This document shows, one piece after another, positions 5,451-24,416 of a stretch of 46,675 nt of DNA (positions are counted from its first letter, which is position 1; each line of letters starts with the position of its first letter). The stretch covers positions 1 through 46,675 of the forward strand of contig CATLJA010000005.1 of NCBI GenBank assembly GCA_949959305.1, written 5' to 3'. A model generated the notes under the pieces. That model did no database searches and was not told the origin of the DNA. It saw only the letters and a list, made by a program, of their open reading frames with translations. A program made the translations under genes and the position numbers. This stretch comes from an uncultured Oscillibacter sp. (GTDB taxonomy: Bacteria; Bacillota; Clostridia; Oscillospirales; Oscillospiraceae).

Positions 5451-5828
5451 CTACTTTCCTGAATCTCCGCTTTTCTGAGCCTGGCGGAACGCGTCCCGGA
5501 GCTCGCCCACCATGGTCTTCACGTGGCTCAAGACCTCCTTGCGGCGTCCGATCTTTGCCCGGCCCAGCTCGTAGGTGAAATATTCGTAGAGCTGCGCCAG
5601 GTTGGTGCTGATGGGATACTGCCGGTCCAGCGTGGAGTCCAGATAGTCGATGATGGCGACGGCCCGCTCAATGGAGGCCTCGTATACAGGGTAGTTCTGC
5701 TGATCCAGCATGAGCTCCGCCTGCGCCAGGCGCTTGTACAACTCGTCATACAGCAGCAGCAGCAGCTCGCCCTGGGTCATGGTGTTGACGCTCTGCTCCT
5801 TGTATTGCTGGTAGCCTTTCATATCCAT
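5451..5828 (-). CDS. fliS: Flagellin export chaperone FliS
   Basis: The 125-residue protein has the classic FliS beginning (YQQYKEQSVNTMTQGELLLL), with the motif for binding the flagellin C-terminus, and then the four-helix bundle. FliS keeps flagellin unfolded in the cytoplasm and hands it to FlhA for export. The ATG at 5828 is preceded by AAGGCGGTGA. It lies 26 bp downstream of fliD on the same strand. Flagellin itself is not in this window. Confidence 0.96.
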   Translation of the reverse strand: MDMKGYQQYKEQSVNTMTQGELLLLLYDELYKRLAQAELMLDQQNYPVYEASIERAVAIIDYLDSTLDRQYPISTNLAQLYEYFTYELGRAKIGRRKEVLSHVKTMVGELRDAFRQAQKSGDSGK

Positions 5829-8712: not shown

Positions 8713-9510
8713 TTGACACAGGTCATCACTGTCACGAATCAAAAGGGCGGCGTGGGCAAAACCACCACCGTTTCCGCGCTGGTCTGCGGCCTGAAGCAGC
8801 GGGGCGCGCGGGTCCTGGGCGTCGATTTGGACCCCCAGGGCAATCTCGGCTTCACCCTGGGCCTGGACATCGGCGAGTGCAAAACCGTCTACGACGTGCT
8901 CACCGGCTCCTGTCCCATTGAGCGGGCCATCTCCCACACGGAGTACGGCGACATCCTCGCCTCGGACATCATGCTCTCCACCGCCGAGGTGGAATTCACG
9001 GCCCCCCGGCGGGAGTTCATGCTCTCCCAGCAGCTGGACGTGGTGAAGCCCAATTACGACTTCATCATCATCGACACGCCTCCGGCGCTGAACATCCTGA
9101 CCATCAACGCCTACGTGGCCTCCACCGGGCTCATCGTCCCCATGGAGGCGGAGGTATTGAGCCTGGTGGGCGTTTCTCAAATCCAGGACACCATCGAAAC
9201 CGTCCGCAAATCCTTCAACCCGGACTTGAAGGTCCTGGGCATTCTCCTGAACAAGTACGACCGCCGCCTGACCCTCTCCCGGGAAATTCTGGACCTGGCG
9301 GAGTCCGTGGCGGAGCAGCTGGGCAGCCAGGTGTTCCACACCAAGGTCCGCCGCAGCGTCAGCGTGGCCATGGCCCCCGCCCACGGACAGAGCGTCCTGA
9401 CCTACCAGCCCGGCGCGAAGGCCTCCGCAGACCTGCGGAAAATCGTGGACGCGGTGGCGGGCCCGGCCTTTCCCCCGCCCCGTCCGGCTCCCCGGACCAA
9501 GTGGTTTTAA
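8713..9510 (+). CDS. ParA/Soj-family ATPase
   Basis: A 265-residue P-loop ATPase of the ParA/MinD class. The deviant Walker A KGGVGKTTT is at residues 10-18, with the signature Lys of the family, followed by VDLDPQGN (Walker A') and IIIDTPPAL (Walker B). There is no N-terminal DQAxxLR motif, as would be expected of FlhG, and no C-terminal amphipathic helix as in MinD; Soj-like partition ATPases are the nearest type. The Pro-rich tail (about 248-262) is unusual. The start is TTG, fixed by AGGAGG eight bases upstream. It is transcribed with the ComFB-domain gene 35 bp downstream and divergently from fliD. A role in positioning flagella or receptor arrays on the nucleoid is inferred from context only. 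Confidence 0.92.
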   Translation: MTQVITVTNQKGGVGKTTTVSALVCGLKQRGARVLGVDLDPQGNLGFTLGLDIGECKTVYDVLTGSCPIERAISHTEYGDILASDIMLSTAEVEFTAPRREFMLSQQLDVVKPNYDFIIIDTPPALNILTINAYVASTGLIVPMEAEVLSLVGVSQIQDTIETVRKSFNPDLKVLGILLNKYDRRLTLSREILDLAESVAEQLGSQVFHTKVRRSVSVAMAPAHGQSVLTYQPGAKASADLRKIVDAVAGPAFPPPRPAPRTKWF

Positions 9511-9544: not shown

Positions 9545-10249
9545 ATGGCATCCAACAACAGCAGCAAAACCGCCCATGTGATGAACCTGCTCAGCAAGAA
9601 CCGGGGCGCCTCCTCCGAGGCGGCGGAGCCCAAGGCAGAGGCCGCTCCTTCCCAGGCGCAGCCCGCCCCCCAGGCGGAACCCGCTCCCCAGGCCGAGCCC
9701 GCCCACGCCGCTCCGGTGGCCCCCATCATTTCCTCCATCAACGCCGACGCCGCCGTATCCTCCCAGATTAAGGACGCCCTGGAGGCGGAGCTGGAAGCGG
9801 CTCCCAAGGCTCCGCCCCAGCCTTCCGCACAGGCGGCCCCGGCTCCCCAGCCGGCTCCCGTCCGGCAGGCGGCTCCGCAGGCGCCCGCCCCGGCTGCTCC
9901 GGTCCCGGAAGCGCCGCCGGAGTCCCAGGCTCCCGCCCAGCAGCCGCCCGCCCCCGTCCAGGAGGAGGAGAAGCCCGCTTATATCAACGTCATGCAGATC
10001 CTGGTGGAGGAGAAGGCGGATGAGTACATGAAGATGTTCGGCATCTGCTGCTGCGACAAGTGCCGGGTGGACGTCCGGGCCTATGCCCTGAACCACCTGC
10101 CGCCCAAGTACGTAGTGCTGAGCCAGAATGAGCGGGTTCCCCGCCTCACCGTTTATGAGAGCCGCTTCTCCAGCGACATCACCGCCCAGCTGATTCAGGC
10201 CTGCAAAAAAGTCATGCTCACGCCCCATCACTCCCGGCCGGAAAACTGA
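9545..10249 (+). CDS. ComFB-domain protein with basic N-terminal peptide and Pro/Ala linker
   Basis: Three parts are visible in 234 residues. Residues 1-20 form a short basic helix-like peptide (KTAHVMNLLSKNR). Residues 21-145 are a Pro/Ala/Gln-rich, probably disordered linker with one more ordered island at about 58-87. Residues 146-226 match the late-competence ComFB family: NVM start, a CCCDKC cluster at 168-173, then RVDVRAYALNHLPPKYV. ComFB domains are reported to bind cyclic dinucleotides in cyanobacteria. The Cys cluster could bind a metal. Partner proteins of ParA ATPases often carry such a short basic N-terminal peptide, so this looks like the ParA partner. The ATG follows AAAGGAG, and a strong terminator comes directly after. 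Confidence 0.85.
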   Translation: MASNNSSKTAHVMNLLSKNRGASSEAAEPKAEAAPSQAQPAPQAEPAPQAEPAHAAPVAPIISSINADAAVSSQIKDALEAELEAAPKAPPQPSAQAAPAPQPAPVRQAAPQAPAPAAPVPEAPPESQAPAQQPPAPVQEEEKPAYINVMQILVEEKADEYMKMFGICCCDKCRVDVRAYALNHLPPKYVVLSQNERVPRLTVYESRFSSDITAQLIQACKKVMLTPHHSRPEN

Positions 10250-15230: not shown

Positions 15231-16064
15231 TTATCCCTTCTTCCTCTTAGGTTTCGGCTCCGGTGTGTCGTTTAAGTACCCTTCCATATAGGTCTTCAGC
15301 TTTTGAAGGGCCCGGGTGTGTATCTGGGAAATGCGGGGCTCGCTGAGCTCCATCACCTGGGCGATTTCCTTCAAATGCAGGTTCCGCTCATAATACAGGG
15401 AGAGGACAATCTGCTCGTTCTCCCGCAGAGAGGCGATGCCCTGGGCCAGGGCCCGCTGCATCTCCCGCTCCTGGAGCACCAGCTCCGGCTGGCTCCGCAC
15501 GTCGCTGGAGGGGACCTCCATGGGGTAGCCTGCGGTCTCCCGGGTGTCCATCAGCACATCCAGGGAAAGCACATTGCTCAGGGCAATGTTGGCGGCGTCC
15601 TTTTGATACCGCTCCTGGGTAATGCCCAGGTAGCCGGCAATCTCTCCGTCGGTGGGGGTCCGCCCCAGGGAGGCGGACAGCTCCGCCGTGGCGAGGTCTA
15701 TCTCCTTGGCCCGCTTCCGGACGTTCCGGGGAATCCAGTCCTGCTTTCGGGCCAGGTCGATGACCATGCCCCGGATGCGCTTGGAGACGTAAGTCTCAAA
15801 CCTCACGCCCTTGTCCGGGTCAAACTTGTCGATGGCCCCCAGAAGGGTGATGATGCCCTCGTTGATGATATCGTCGATTTGGGCGAAGCTGCTGTACACG
15901 CCCCGAATCTGCATGGCGGCGCTTTTAATCAGCCCCTCGTACCGCAGGACCAGGGGCCATTTCAGGCTCTCGTCCCCCGTCTCCTTGTAAAGGCGGAGCA
16001 GGTCCTGGGTGTCCATCTCCTCAATCTCCCGCTCGCCGTACCGGACGGCCGCCCGCTCGCTCAT
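15231..16064 (-). CDS. fliA: RNA polymerase sigma-28 factor (FliA/SigD)
   Basis: A 277-residue sigma factor of the FliA/WhiG class. Region 2 is around residues 35-115 (IDDIINEGIITLLGAIDKFD, then RFETYVSKRIRGMVID), region 3 follows, and region 4 with its helix-turn-helix (LKEIAQVMELSEPRISQIH) is near 230-255. It directs late flagellar genes such as flagellin and fliD. Its ATG overlaps the flhA stop (ATGA). Release by FlgM export is the usual control; flgM is not in this window. Confidence 0.95.
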   Translation of the reverse strand: MSERAAVRYGEREIEEMDTQDLLRLYKETGDESLKWPLVLRYEGLIKSAAMQIRGVYSSFAQIDDIINEGIITLLGAIDKFDPDKGVRFETYVSKRIRGMVIDLARKQDWIPRNVRKRAKEIDLATAELSASLGRTPTDGEIAGYLGITQERYQKDAANIALSNVLSLDVLMDTRETAGYPMEVPSSDVRSQPELVLQEREMQRALAQGIASLRENEQIVLSLYYERNLHLKEIAQVMELSEPRISQIHTRALQKLKTYMEGYLNDTPEPKPKRKKG

Positions 16065-18172
16065 GTGCCCACCGCCCTTCGCTCGGGCCGGGCGGCAGGC
16101 TCCAGGGTGATATTGCCGATGGCCTGAATCTGCACGGCGCTGGTGATTTCATTGAAGGACAGCACGTAAACGCCGGGATAGAACTGGGTAATCATTTTCG
16201 AGAAATAGCCCCGGATCACCTGGCTGACCAGGATGATGGGCGTTTGGGAGAGGTCGTTGAACTTCTTCATCTGGCCCGCCAGCTGGGAGACAATCTGCTG
16301 CATCAGCTCCGGGCCCATGGCCAGGTACACGCCCTGCTCGTTCCGGGTAAGGGAGGCGATAATCTTCTTCTCCACCTCCGCGTCCAGGGTGACCACCCGG
16401 AGCTGCCCGTCCTCGCAGAAGCGGCGGGTGATGGTCCGGGCCAGCGCGCCCCGGACCTGCTCCGTGGCGGCGTCCACGTCCCGGCCCTGGACCAGCGCGT
16501 CGGCCAGGGTCTCCACGATGGTTCCCAGGTCCTTGATGGGCACTCCCTCTTTCAGGAGGTTCCGCAGCACCTTTTCCAGCGTCGCGTAGGAGATAACGCC
16601 GGGAATGGCCTCCTCCACCAGCTCCGGGGCGGTGCGCTTCAGATTCTCCACCAGCTGAATGGTCTCCGTCCGGCCCAGCATCTCGTAGGCGTACTTTTTC
16701 ACTGTCTCCGAAAGGTGGGTCAGCATGACGGACAGGGGGTCGATAACGTTGTAGCCGTAAATTTCCGCCATTTCCTTGTTCTCCGGCAGAATCCACCGGG
16801 AGGGGATGCCGTAGGCGGGCTCGATGGTCTCGATGCCGTCGATTTCCCCCAGGGGGTTGGCGGGCTCCAGGGCCAGGTAGTAATCCACCAGTATCTCGCC
16901 CCGGGCCACCTCCTCGCCCCGGATGCGGATGACGTACTGGTTCGTCCCCAGGGACGACGCGTCGTGCAGCCGGATGGAGGGGAAGACAAAGCCCATGTCC
17001 TGGGCGTACTGGCGGCGGAAAATGACGATGCGGCTGATGAGCTTGCCGCCGTGGCTCTCGTCCACCATGGGGATGAGGCTGTATCCAAACTCCATCTCGA
17101 TGGGCTCCACCGAGAGGAGGTTGTAGACGTTGTTGATGTCCTTGTAATAGTCGGTCTCGCTGGGCGCGGCGGCCTCGGACGTTTGCTGCTGCTGCTCCGC
17201 AGCGGCCTGGAGGGCGGCGGTCTCCTGCCGCTCCTGGTCCATGCGGCTGCTGACAAACCAGCCCGCCCCCAGCAGAAGCCCGCCGCCCACGGCCAGGGCG
17301 AAGTGGGGCGTGTTGGGTATGGCCGCCAGGAACAGGAGGATAACGCCGGTGGTCATGATGGCCCGGGGCTGGTTCTTGAACTGCCCGATAACGTCCTTGT
17401 TGAGGCTTCCCTCAGACACGGAGCGGGTGACAATCATGCCCGTGGCGGTGGAAATCATCAGCGCCGGAAGCTGGGAGACCAGGCCGTCGCCGATGGTGAC
17501 GATGGAGTATTTGGAAAGAACGTCGGTAAACTGCCCGCCGTTCACCACCATTCCGATGATGGTGCCCCCGATGAAGTTGATCATGGTGATCAACAACGAC
17601 ATGGTGGCGTCGCCTTTGACGATCTTGGTGGCGCCGTCCATGGCGCCGTAGAAGTCGGCCTCTTTTTGAATCTTGTGCCGGCGGCTCTTGGCCTCCTGCT
17701 CGTCAATGAGGCCGGAGCTGAGGTCCGCGTCGATGGCCATCTGCTTGCCGGGCATGGCGTCCAGGGTGAACCGGGCGGCCACCTCGGCCACGCGCTCGGC
17801 GCCCTTGGTGATGACGATGAACTGCACCAGCACGATGATCAGGAAGATCACCACGCCGACGACGATATTGCCGCCGGTAATCAGGCCGCCGAAGTTTTGA
17901 ATCACCTCTCCGGCGTAGCCGTTCCAGAGAATCTGCCGCGTTGTGGACACGTTCAGCCCCAGCCGGAACAGCGTGGTAATCAGCAGCAAAGACGGGAAGA
18001 TGGAAAACTCCAGGGCCTCGGAAATGTTCATCGTGATCATCAGGATCATGACGGACAGCCCGATGTTCACCACCAGCAGAATGTCCAGCAGGGGCGTGGG
18101 CAGGGGGATAATCAAAAACAGGACGATAACCACGACGGCAAGAGATATTACGTTGTCCAGAATCTTTCTCAA
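16061..18172 (-). CDS. flhA: Flagellar export gate protein FlhA
   Basis: FlhA forms the nonameric ring of the flagellar type III export gate. The N-terminal half has about eight membrane helices (about 1-315), with the FHIPEP-family segment RFTLDAMPGKQMAIDADL at 134-151. The C-terminal cytoplasmic half docks chaperones such as FliS. The length of 703 residues is normal. The start is TTG at 18172, with CAGGAGGTGA upstream. In many clostridia flhF and flhG follow flhA; here the sigma-28 gene follows with a 4-base overlap. Confidence 0.96.
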   Translation of the reverse strand: MRKILDNVISLAVVVIVLFLIIPLPTPLLDILLVVNIGLSVMILMITMNISEALEFSIFPSLLLITTLFRLGLNVSTTRQILWNGYAGEVIQNFGGLITGGNIVVGVVIFLIIVLVQFIVITKGAERVAEVAARFTLDAMPGKQMAIDADLSSGLIDEQEAKSRRHKIQKEADFYGAMDGATKIVKGDATMSLLITMINFIGGTIIGMVVNGGQFTDVLSKYSIVTIGDGLVSQLPALMISTATGMIVTRSVSEGSLNKDVIGQFKNQPRAIMTTGVILLFLAAIPNTPHFALAVGGGLLLGAGWFVSSRMDQERQETAALQAAAEQQQQTSEAAAPSETDYYKDINNVYNLLSVEPIEMEFGYSLIPMVDESHGGKLISRIVIFRRQYAQDMGFVFPSIRLHDASSLGTNQYVIRIRGEEVARGEILVDYYLALEPANPLGEIDGIETIEPAYGIPSRWILPENKEMAEIYGYNVIDPLSVMLTHLSETVKKYAYEMLGRTETIQLVENLKRTAPELVEEAIPGVISYATLEKVLRNLLKEGVPIKDLGTIVETLADALVQGRDVDAATEQVRGALARTITRRFCEDGQLRVVTLDAEVEKKIIASLTRNEQGVYLAMGPELMQQIVSQLAGQMKKFNDLSQTPIILVSQVIRGYFSKMITQFYPGVYVLSFNEITSAVQIQAIGNITLEPAARPERRAVGT

Positions 18173-21483: not shown

Positions 21484-21852
21484 TCAGGGATTGCCCAGGA
21501 TGGTGCTGACGGTCTTGAGCACCCGGTCGGGCTTGAAGGGCTTGACGATGAAGTCCTTCGCGCCGGAGCGCACCGCGTCCATGACCATGCTCTCCTGGCC
21601 CATGGCGGAGCACATGACCACGTTGGCGCCGCTGTCCTTGGCGCGGATGGCCTTCAGGGCCTCCAGGCCGTCCATGTTGGGCATGGTGATGTCCATAATC
21701 ACCAGGTCCGGGCCAATCTCGCCGAACTTCTCCACCGCGTCCGCGCCGTCAACGGCCTCGAACAGCTCCGTATACCCGTTCTTGCTCAGGGTATCCTTAA
21801 TCATCTTCCGCATAAAGGCGGCGTCGTCGACCAGCAGAATCTTCTTAGCCAT
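21484..21852 (-). CDS. cheY: Chemotaxis response regulator CheY
   Basis: A single receiver domain of 122 residues. Acidic residues Asp9/Asp10, phospho-acceptor Asp54 in VIMDITMPNMDG, switch Ser in MCSAMGQ and the Lys in IVKPF are all in place. CheY-P binds FliM and FliY to alter rotation. It lies directly after fliY, as in other Firmicutes, and the 81-bp gap before it holds only a ribosome site and AT-rich DNA. Confidence 0.96.
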   Translation of the reverse strand: MAKKILLVDDAAFMRKMIKDTLSKNGYTELFEAVDGADAVEKFGEIGPDLVIMDITMPNMDGLEALKAIRAKDSGANVVMCSAMGQESMVMDAVRSGAKDFIVKPFKPDRVLKTVSTILGNP

Positions 21853-21933: not shown

Positions 21934-23406
21934 TTATTTCTTCACCAGCTCAATCACGGGGTCCTGGACAATCTCGGTGATGCGCACGCCGAAGTTGTCG
22001 TCGATCACCACCACGTCGCCTTTTGCCACGCATTTCCCGTTGACGAACAGGTCCACCTGGTCGCCCGCCAGCTTGTCGAGGACCACCAGGGACCCCTTGG
22101 AAAACTCCAGGATATCCTGCACCTTCCGGTGCGTCCGGCCAATCTCCACCGTCACCTGAAGGGGAACCTCCATAATGAGGTCCAGATTCTGCGCCTGCTC
22201 CTTCCCCAGCACGTCCGCCGGGTCCATCTCCCGCAGGGGCGCGGGCCGGGTGTTGATGACCTTGGGCTCCGGGGCCGGGGGCGCGGGAGCCGGAGCGGGG
22301 GCGTTGTTGGCCATGGCCGTGGTCATGGCCGTCATCATGGCCGCCATCATGGCTCCAAAGTCCGCCGCGGTGGCGGGCTGCGCCATGGGCTGGGCCGCCG
22401 GGGCCGGCTGGGGCGCAGCCTGAGGCGCGGAGGGAGCGGGCTGAGGCGCGGGCTGGGGAGCCGGGGCGGGGGCGGGCTCGCCGCCGCCCATGCCGGCCAG
22501 CATGGCCTCAATCTCCTCCTGGCTCATTTTCTTGCTGGAGGAAGCGGGCTCCGGCGCGGGAGCGGGGGTGGGTTCGCCACCGTCTGCGCCGCCGGCCAGC
22601 ATGGCCTCAATCTCCTCCTGGCTCATTTTCCTGCCGGAGGAAGCGGGCTCCGGGGCCGGGGCGGGAGCGGGCTCGCCGCCGCCCATGCCGGCCAGCATGG
22701 CCTCGATTTCCTCCTGGCTCATTTTTCCGCCGGAGGAGGCGGCGGGCTCCGGCGCGGGGGCAGGGGCGGGAGCGGGAGCCGGAGCAGGCGCCGCTTCCTC
22801 CTCTTCTTCGTCGCCCAGGCCCAGGCCCTTCAAAAGCTCCTTGGCCAGCTCCACGCTCATAACGTTCATGAATTCGCTCTCCAGGGCCCCCTCAATCCTG
22901 AGGGAGAAGCGGACGATGACGATGGTGTCCGCCCCCTGGGGGAGGTGATTCTGCTTGAAGGCGTCCAAATCCTCCAGCTCGAAGGGCTGGGGGGTGGAAA
23001 TATCCACCTGGTAGCCCAAAAAGTCGCTCATGGCCGTGGCGGCCGCGCCCATCATCTGGTTCATGACCTCGCAGACGGCGCTGATGGTCAGCTCGTTAAG
23101 CTCGAACTCCTCGTCCGGCGTCTCGCCGCCCATGAGGATGTCCACAATGACCTTGATGTCGCTGCGCTTGAGGAGCATGATGTTGCTCCCCGCCAGGCCC
23201 TCCACGTATTTAATCTCGATGCCCATGGCGGGCTCCAGGTTGCCCAGGGCGAAGTCCGCCGTTTTGATGGACGTGACCTTGGGGGTCGTGATATCGACTC
23301 TGTGCTCCAGAAGGTTGGACACTGCGGTGGCAGAGGAGCCAAGGCTGATGTTCATCATTTCCCCGAGGGCGTCAATCTCCATCGGGCTAAACAATTTCTT
23401 CTCCAT
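21934..23406 (-). CDS. fliY: Flagellar switch and CheY-P phosphatase protein FliY, with a long repeat-bearing linker
   Basis: FliY combines a CheC-like CheY-P phosphatase domain (about 1-198) and a C-terminal FliN domain (about 405-490) of the switch C-ring. Both E-x-x-N sites are intact: Glu16/Asn19 and Glu113/Asn116. Between the domains is a linker of about 205 residues rich in Pro and Ala. It contains three copies of MSQEEIEAMLAG at 229-240, 261-272 and 294-305, and a Met/Ala segment near 350-367. This motif resembles the CheY-binding peptide at the N-terminus of FliM. In other FliY proteins such a peptide is at the very N-terminus; here the protein begins directly with the phosphatase helix. 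It starts 5 bp after the fliM stop. Confidence 0.95.
   Translation of the reverse strand: MEKKLFSPMEIDALGEMMNISLGSSATAVSNLLEHRVDITTPKVTSIKTADFALGNLEPAMGIEIKYVEGLAGSNIMLLKRSDIKVIVDILMGGETPDEEFELNELTISAVCEVMNQMMGAAATAMSDFLGYQVDISTPQPFELEDLDAFKQNHLPQGADTIVIVRFSLRIEGALESEFMNVMSVELAKELLKGLGLGDEEEEEAAPAPAPAPAPAPAPEPAASSGGKMSQEEIEAMLAGMGGGEPAPAPAPEPASSGRKMSQEEIEAMLAGGADGGEPTPAPAPEPASSSKKMSQEEIEAMLAGMGGGEPAPAPAPQPAPQPAPSAPQAAPQPAPAAQPMAQPATAADFGAMMAAMMTAMTTAMANNAPAPAPAPPAPEPKVINTRPAPLREMDPADVLGKEQAQNLDLIMEVPLQVTVEIGRTHRKVQDILEFSKGSLVVLDKLAGDQVDLFVNGKCVAKGDVVVIDDNFGVRITEIVQDPVIELVKK
22492..22722 (-). repeat. Three direct repeats in fliY encoding a CheY-binding-like motif
   Basis: Three units spaced 96 and 99 bases apart each encode MSQEEIEAMLAG followed by an acidic/Gly and Pro/Ala spacer. 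The DNA copies are also alike, which points to tandem duplication in frame. Confidence 0.9.
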
Positions 23407-23411
23407 TCCGT

Positions 23412-24416
23412 CTACTCGCTCCTTTGCTCAAGCTGATAGCATACTTCATCTATCTTCACAGCCATGTTTTTCTTATGGGTTCCCATCTTTCCGGTAAACC
23501 AGTGGTAGCCGCCGATTTCCAGGTAAATGGGCGATTCCTTGGGCTGTCCCAAGTCGATAACGTCTCCCACGTTCAGATGGTAGATGTCGCTGAGGGAGAG
23601 CTGCGCGCTGGCCAGCTCCGCGATAATCTCCAGCTGGGAATCCCGCAGCTTGTCGAAAATCTCCTCGTGTTTGTCCTCCGCCGCCGACCTGCGCATGGGG
23701 CTCTCCCGGCTGATTTCCGCGAACACGTTGGTCAGCACCTCTCCGGGCAGGCACACGCTCATCCGCCCCGCCAAGTTGGGGAACGCCAGCTTCAAGTCCA
23801 CGATGACCACCGTCTCGTCCAGGCCAATCACCTGGTTCAGCGTGGGGTTGACCTCGGTCCGGCTGTAGTTGAAGTGGATGGGCACGTAATTCTCCCAGCT
23901 CCGGTCCATCACCTTGACTGTGTCGCTGGCCAGGTCCTCAAAGAGCTTCAGCTCCAAATCCGTGTAGCTGTAGTCGGACTCCAAATCGTCGTCCACAGCG
24001 CCTTCCCCGCCCAGCATCCGGTCCATCATGCTCAGGGCCGTCGAGGTGGAGATATAGAGCATTGCCGGCGTCTCCTGCATCTGCCCCTTCAATTCCACAT
24101 CGATCATGCCCAGCACGTCGCCCTCCGTCAGGGCGTTGGAAAACTCAAAGTATCGCTGTTCCTCGATGCTCTCCACCGTCACCTCGCAGGTGGAGCGGAG
24201 GCGGGCGTTCAGCCGCGAGCTGATTACCCGGGAATAGTTGTCAAAAATGCCGTTAAGCATTTTGATGCGGTCTTTGGTGAATTTGCGGGGACTGCTGAAG
24301 TCGTATTTCTGGTACTTCTTCTCCTGCTTATCGGCGGAAGGTTCCGAATCCTTTTCTCCGCTTCGGACCGCGTTCAGCAAAGCGTCAATTTGCGCTTGCG
24401 ATAATACGTCTGCCAT
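23412..24416 (-). CDS. fliM: Flagellar motor switch protein FliM
   Basis: FliM links the C-ring to CheY-P. The N-terminal CheY-binding peptide LSQAQIDALL is at residues 5-14, a linker follows, then the CheC-like middle domain (about 45-235) and the C-terminal FliN-like domain (about 250-330). Length 334 is usual. The ATG follows a run of G (GGGGGG). It is preceded by motB with a 62-bp gap and no fliL gene between. Confidence 0.96.
   Translation of the reverse strand: MADVLSQAQIDALLNAVRSGEKDSEPSADKQEKKYQKYDFSSPRKFTKDRIKMLNGIFDNYSRVISSRLNARLRSTCEVTVESIEEQRYFEFSNALTEGDVLGMIDVELKGQMQETPAMLYISTSTALSMMDRMLGGEGAVDDDLESDYSYTDLELKLFEDLASDTVKVMDRSWENYVPIHFNYSRTEVNPTLNQVIGLDETVVIVDLKLAFPNLAGRMSVCLPGEVLTNVFAEISRESPMRRSAAEDKHEEIFDKLRDSQLEIIAELASAQLSLSDIYHLNVGDVIDLGQPKESPIYLEIGGYHWFTGKMGTHKKNMAVKIDEVCYQLEQRSE

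Follow-up and report, generated by a model that had tools for sequence, protein, structure and literature searches.

In the usual view, the flagellar switch receives CheY-P by way of a single peptide on each FliM, with one further peptide per FliY in Bacillus. The FliY encoded in the window (the whole stretch of 46,675 nucleotides analyzed here) carries three FliM-like peptides in the linker between its phosphatase and FliN domains, which raises the question of what partner these internal peptides bind and to what effect. According to excerpts of the respective papers, EIDALL in FliM and FliY is the CheY-P site (PMC9126983), a CheY-binding motif lies at the N-terminus of B. subtilis FliY (PMC8809382), and FliY is the CheY phosphatase of B. 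subtilis (PMC340952). Full or degenerate EIDAL motifs occur sporadically in some FliN and FliY proteins (PMC6946799); the excerpted text of that source mentions no repeats, linker arrays or link to the absence of FlhF/FlhG. No description of repeated CheY peptides in FliY appeared among the literature matches listed, all open-licence papers. The genes and protein segments concerned are as follows.

15231-16064, minus strand: sigma factor gene, directly following flhA (16061-18172, minus strand), with no flhF or flhG between them
21484..21852, minus strand: cheY, encoding the proposed ligand; the nearest solved sequence is T. maritima CheY
21934..23406, minus strand: fliY, 490 amino acids; CheC-type phosphatase domain, Pro/Ala linker and FliN domain
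21964..22179, minus strand: FliN-type C-ring domain of FliY (residues 410-480, Pfam)
22492..22527, minus strand: candidate docking motif, copy 3 (residues 294-305; 10-mer core 22498-22527; predicted helix 296-304)
22591..22626, minus strand: candidate docking motif, copy 2 (residues 261-272; 10-mer core 22597-22626; predicted helix 263-271)
22687..22722, minus strand: candidate docking motif, copy 1, MSQEEIEAMLAG (residues 229-240; 10-mer core 22693-22722; predicted helix 231-239)
22990..23373, minus strand: phosphatase-domain stretch holding the two active-site patterns (pattern scan, residues 12-42 and 109-139)
23412..24416, minus strand: fliM; N-terminal peptide LSQAQIDALL encoded at 24375-24404

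The gene lies between fliM and cheY, and its product belongs to the FliY family by NCBIfam NF005995 (329 bits, cut-off 218). Pfam identifies CheC (4.8e-23) and FliMN_C (5.3e-22) domains, and the Pro/Ala-rich linker spans ~210 residues. A scan with the active-site pattern of the CheC family located two such patterns; by its domains and both patterns the protein is a predicted CheY-P phosphatase. Among PDB entries, the window CheY most resembles T. maritima CheY (1tmy, E 1.6e-40; 4iga, 1.7e-40); the latter entry contains the complex with the FliM peptide. The combination of a CheC-type phosphatase with a FliN domain is shared with B. subtilis FliY, from which the window protein differs in having no N-terminal copy of the peptide and three copies in a longer linker, where the B. 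subtilis protein has a single N-terminal one; the window genome also differs in that FlhF and FlhG were not found.

Copies of the 12-mer MSQEEIEAMLAG begin at residues 229, 261 and 294, and the 32- and 33-residue spacing that the first-pass annotation had read from the translation is correct, the 12-mers spanning 22492-22722. Two further statements made there also hold: the adjoining FliM begins with LSQAQIDALL (MADVLSQAQIDALL), and FliY lacks the N-terminal copy, its start (MEKKLFSPMEIDALGEMMN) forming no separate peptide and leading directly into the first CheC helix. At the level of the 12 codons, the second and third copies are identical, and the first deviates from them at two silent sites; an imperfect 99-bp tandem repeat at 22448-22770 encloses all three. 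The linker thrice matches the core of the N-terminal CheY-binding peptide, defined as [LM]SQ.[EQ]I[DEN]..[LM][LM]. Since the N-terminal placement is absent, the linker copies are proposed to work like the N-terminal peptide and are not named as that element. The only other full match in a six-frame scan of the window is the FliM N-terminus; a 7-of-8 match at 5751-5780 looks like chance. The N-terminus of the NCBIfam FliM model aligns weakly to linker residues 226-251 (E 0.074). Among 20,000 shuffles of the window linker, seven contained one copy and none contained two or more.

Structure prediction gives a similarly FliM-like picture of the peptides, but no sign of CheY docking. AlphaFold (43 alignment rows) places a helix at each of the three motifs (231-239, 263-271 and 296-304) in a linker with many stretches below 50 pLDDT. 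The linker copies thus share with the FliM N-terminal peptide (EIDALL) both the core and a short, flexibly tethered predicted helix; they differ in being internal, repeated, located on FliY, and in carrying E at position 7. To append CheY in a second model, the fliY stop was ignored and translation continued into cheY, which is in frame (40 rows, 20 of which read through). The 10-residue motif blocks scored 71, 75 and 61 alone and 66, 66 and 59 with CheY, in a weak test that modelled no phosphorylation and returned no contacts. Motif confidence was not raised, and AlphaFold thus provides no support for docking; the FliN part is of low confidence in both models. The earlier interpretation of the linker as a multivalent CheY-P trap is borne out in part, as regards FliM-like peptides, multiple copies and, as described below, recurrence, but gains nothing from this prediction. 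Elsewhere in the linker, a Met/Ala-rich stretch (residues 347-367; window 22306-22368, minus strand) is predicted as a long helix at a site where other species have Tyr/Pro-rich sequence.

Searches covered own, related, genus, family, order, class and phylum samples; with 80 named loci and a further 60 regions requested, they yielded 239 distinct proteins with both CheC and FliN domains from 308 loci, a non-random sample that leans to close relatives and hand-picked rows. Linker copies (1-5) occur in 119 of these proteins, N-terminal copies (1-3) in 89, and neither in 31. Expressed as (N-terminal, linker) copies, the distribution is (0,0) 31, (0,1) 14, (0,2) 47, (0,3) 43, (0,4) 14, (0,5) 1, (1,0) 85, (2,0) 3 and (3,0) 1. 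Taken together, the 239 linkers contain 298 copies, versus a mean of 0.25 over 200 rounds of shuffling. No FliY among the 239 has copies in both places, with 117 of the 119 linker proteins being informative for this exclusion because two (L019 and L056) are cut at the N-terminus. Four apparent two-place proteins at threshold 6 were rejected, as the linker match, at the FliN border, is not this motif. The named loci gave a two-domain FliY in 79 of 80 cases, each with 1-5 linker copies; being the best 80 matches to an alignment of mostly linker-copy proteins, they do not estimate frequency.

Lack of conservation among close relatives had been named beforehand as a refutation of the proposal; it was not observed, all 28 distinct two-domain FliYs of the genus carrying 1-4 linker copies. 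By record title, linker-copy proteins belong to Oscillospiraceae, Lachnospiraceae, Butyricicoccaceae and Acutalibacteraceae, with a few records from Clostridiaceae, Paenibacillaceae and Peptostreptococcaceae, some of them maybe misnamed bins. Arrays are also present in the cultured species Flavonifractor plautii ATCC 29863 (two copies), Oscillibacter valericigenes (four) and Lacrimispora xylanisolvens (two). The linker array of the window FliY is therefore no local oddity but recurs in FliYs of many species. The companion claim of a single, N-terminal peptide in the FliY of other species applies to 85 of the 89 N-terminal-copy proteins and fails for the four with two or three copies. The median linker length is 199 residues in linker-copy proteins versus 90 in N-terminal-copy proteins. 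Both active-site patterns are present in 117/119 linker-copy and 89/89 N-terminal-copy FliYs. The distance from the phosphatase domain to the start of the array has a median of 33 residues, and that from the end of the array to FliN a median of 106. The placement of the copies beside a phosphatase domain with intact active-site patterns, as seen in the window, is thus a recurrent arrangement. Three FliYs of 805, 622 and 574 residues (L235, L241 and L270) apparently contain 2-3 CheC-type domains in tandem.

FliM keeps its own peptide in all 115 linker-copy loci with a readable start (of 119), in 38/43 N-terminal-copy loci and in 22/23 neither-copy loci, and the core of the linker motifs recurs in the peptide of the FliM encoded alongside (115/115 readable loci). 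A cheY gene is present in the locus for 115 of the 119 linker-copy FliYs. At position 5, the FliM peptide has Q in 113/115 linker-copy loci, E in 36/38 N-terminal-copy loci and Q in 20/22 neither-copy loci, the last of which suggests that Q may be a clade trait. FliY linker copies have E at position 5 in 273 of 298 cases and E at position 7 in 280 of 298, versus D or N at position 7 in 89 of 94 N-terminal copies; the affinity may differ as a result. This regular difference between the FliM and FliY peptides of one cell may tune affinity. When CheY sequences were compared between the classes, 8 of the 22 most different positions fell in residues 87-118 (alpha4-beta5-alpha5), which is no clear enrichment.

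The reading that best accommodates these observations, to which we assign a probability of about 0.6, is that a CheY-P docking array, moved to the linker and multiplied, lies next to an intact phosphatase and acts in the manner of a tethered trap. The motifs would be FliM-type helices that dock CheY. FliY has no N-terminal peptide in a clade of mostly gut Clostridia that yielded no FlhF/FlhG; there the docking peptide would reside in the disordered linker, mostly as 2-4 copies between the phosphatase and C-ring (FliN) domains. Several CheY-P would be held by each FliY near its two intact phosphatase sites, and the switch would thereby gather CheY-P as well as clear it. The resemblance of the peptides to a known site suggests that they bind CheY-P, and their position suggests that capture may be coupled to dephosphorylation; in many gut Clostridia the FliY linker peptide, in 1-5 copies, probably grabs CheY. 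A worm-like chain estimate, with assumed persistence lengths and distances, places the local concentration of motif-bound CheY near the phosphatase domain at ~0.8-9 mM.

A phosphatase with a tethered docking peptide has a precedent in CheZ, a CheY-P phosphatase whose C-terminal CheY-binding peptide is tethered and present once per chain. The analogy is one of mechanism only, since CheZ has an unrelated fold, a single peptide per chain and a location outside the C-ring, whereas the window array is multivalent. Two observations also count against CheY-P docking: 31 of the 239 FliYs lack any copy by the motif criterion, and T. maritima FliY binds activated CheY no better than inactive CheY, according to an excerpt of PMC7355467.

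The docking sequence would serve equally well an array that binds CheY-P for storage or for switching gain at the C-ring, with the extra sites raising local CheY-P for FliM, and several copies per FliY suit a buffer. This is the strongest competitor, although it is judged unlikely: the array is closer to the phosphatase domain than to FliN and both active-site patterns are intact in 117/119 proteins, which together lead us to lean towards capture beside the phosphatase over pure storage, on data compatible with both.

Docking of some other partner, be it a different response regulator, an assembly factor or another C-ring part, appears more doubtful still. The charge pattern of the linker copies is unlike that of FliM peptides, and two non-FliY proteins bear arrays of the motif, one of them beside a RelA/SpoT-like rather than a flagellar gene; on the other hand, the known CheY-P site has the same core, and the second array protein is akin to the product of a gene in a flagellar locus. 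The former (L262; 33-1568, plus strand) has 511 residues, with ten copies after an N-terminal domain that lacks a credible Pfam match and occurs in 2/119 genomes of its family; the adjoining frame resembles a RelA/SpoT-type synthetase by eye, and the FliY of the same genome (L263) has no motif copy. The latter (L261; 317-1528, plus strand, running off its contig) has six copies, and its start matches window 9545-9853 with 62% identity over ~106 residues. That segment belongs to a ComFB-domain protein (9545-10249, plus strand; ComFB 8.4e-17) beside the flagellar locus, matches to which lie near flagellar genes in five members of the genus; the L261 contig ends ahead of where a ComFB domain could be seen. 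ComFB is a c-di-AMP receptor, as stated in the excerpted text of PMC12313861.

Returning to CheY-P docking, the distribution of arrays allows a broader but tentative proposal, held at somewhat short of even odds: multi-copy CheY-docking arrays may be a recurrent Clostridial motility module acting as a multivalent CheY-P sponge, having arisen in the FliY linker where FlhF/FlhG are lacking, separately at the FliY N-terminus, in the six-copy protein whose start matches the ComFB-domain protein and in the ten-copy protein. If so, arrays would turn the C-ring, or a second-messenger protein, into a CheY-P sponge that sets the amount and duration of CheY-P action. For the switch itself, several more phosphatase-tethered sites per unit would alter gain, response time and local CheY-P lifetime.

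A GC-rich repeat expanding neutrally in a linker that tolerates it is a highly improbable explanation, despite the 99-bp tandem repeat, the variation in copy number from 0 to 5 and the likeness of copies within a species. The core is kept across many genera while the spacers diverge. Between copies of one protein (105 proteins), pN/pS is 0.137 in the motif versus 0.609 in the flanks, a contrast that is exaggerated because the copies were chosen through the motif and the flanks were aligned without gaps. Silent sites drift to a similar extent in both (pS 0.477 in the motif, 0.523 in the flanks), and pN is lower in the motif than in the flanks in 100/105 proteins. This constraint disfavors neutral repeat growth. 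Core versions differ by species (IEAML, IERML, IEKLM and others), and such species-specific versions of one core suggest that repeat homogenization acts together with selection on the core.

A second protein known to bind the FliY N-terminus, the MinD-like ATPase FlhG, had been left aside in the earlier reading. In Bacillus relatives FlhG attaches to the start of FliY, residues 1-36 being necessary and sufficient for this binding (excerpts of PMC12327844). A linker motif maintained for FlhG would predict that linker-copy genomes encode this protein. FlhF, searched in 130 of the 185 classified genomes, exceeds the curated cut-off in 29/34 N-terminal-copy, 0/65 linker-copy and 4/31 neither-copy genomes. 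A query alignment of twelve FlhGs located beside flhF gave FlhG-grade matches in 15/16, 0/40 and 3/23 genomes, respectively. Some genomes gave weak matches (1e-30 to 1e-41), a level that corresponds to MinD-like paralogues, and those at ~1e-31 to 1e-36 in five linker-copy genomes were likewise set aside as MinD-level. Several linker-copy genomes are incomplete bins, but near-closed ones are also represented, among them G539 (one contig), G106 and G414 (two), and G063 and G884 (three). The window genome has no FlhF over the cut-off and no FlhG match at E 1e-30, and thus lacks a detectable form of the protein that an FlhG-docking N-terminus requires. Docking of FlhG by the linker copies, as by the first 36 residues of Bacillus-type FliY, is therefore the least credible explanation, close to refuted for these genomes by the genome search. 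With FlhG an unlikely ligand, CheY-P is left as the likely one. A ParA/Soj-like ATPase is encoded beside the flagellar locus (8713-9510, plus strand; AAA_31 7.4e-51), in a genome lacking FlhG matches at E 1e-30.

The link between motif place and FlhF/FlhG is a new association that rests on few independent lineages: a kinship-corrected test of FlhF against motif place comprised 3-4 independent contrasts on the tree and was not significant. Exceptions to a strict rule are five N-terminal-copy genomes without FlhF (G482, G669, G643, G764 and G155) and four neither-copy genomes with it. The distribution nonetheless constitutes a natural experiment. In genomes with FlhG, the N-terminus of FliY serves two partners, FlhG and CheY; lineages that yielded no FlhF/FlhG have the docking peptide elsewhere, often multiplied, or lack it. 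That one peptide is held in place by two partners becomes a testable idea.

On a FastTree phylogeny of 237 FliYs calculated with the linker left out, the most-parsimonious scheme, which depends on the midpoint root, has the N-terminal copy lost at the base of a 144-member clade (support 99) and linker copies gained in a 120-member clade, 115 members of which have copies (support 92). A second linker gain comprises two f26 genomes with the version LSQAEIEALL (support 99). Both gains fall in lineages already without the N-terminal copy. The same scheme has linker copies lost in five proteins and the N-terminal copy regained once (L192). Multiplication is also seen at the N-terminus, with three clean copies in L271 and two in each of L258 and L259. 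One clean copy is accompanied by three or four degenerate ones (MSPEAIAAML type) in L249 and L250, and L251, L253 and L254 have added degenerate copies; when these are counted, N-terminal copies per FliY reach five.
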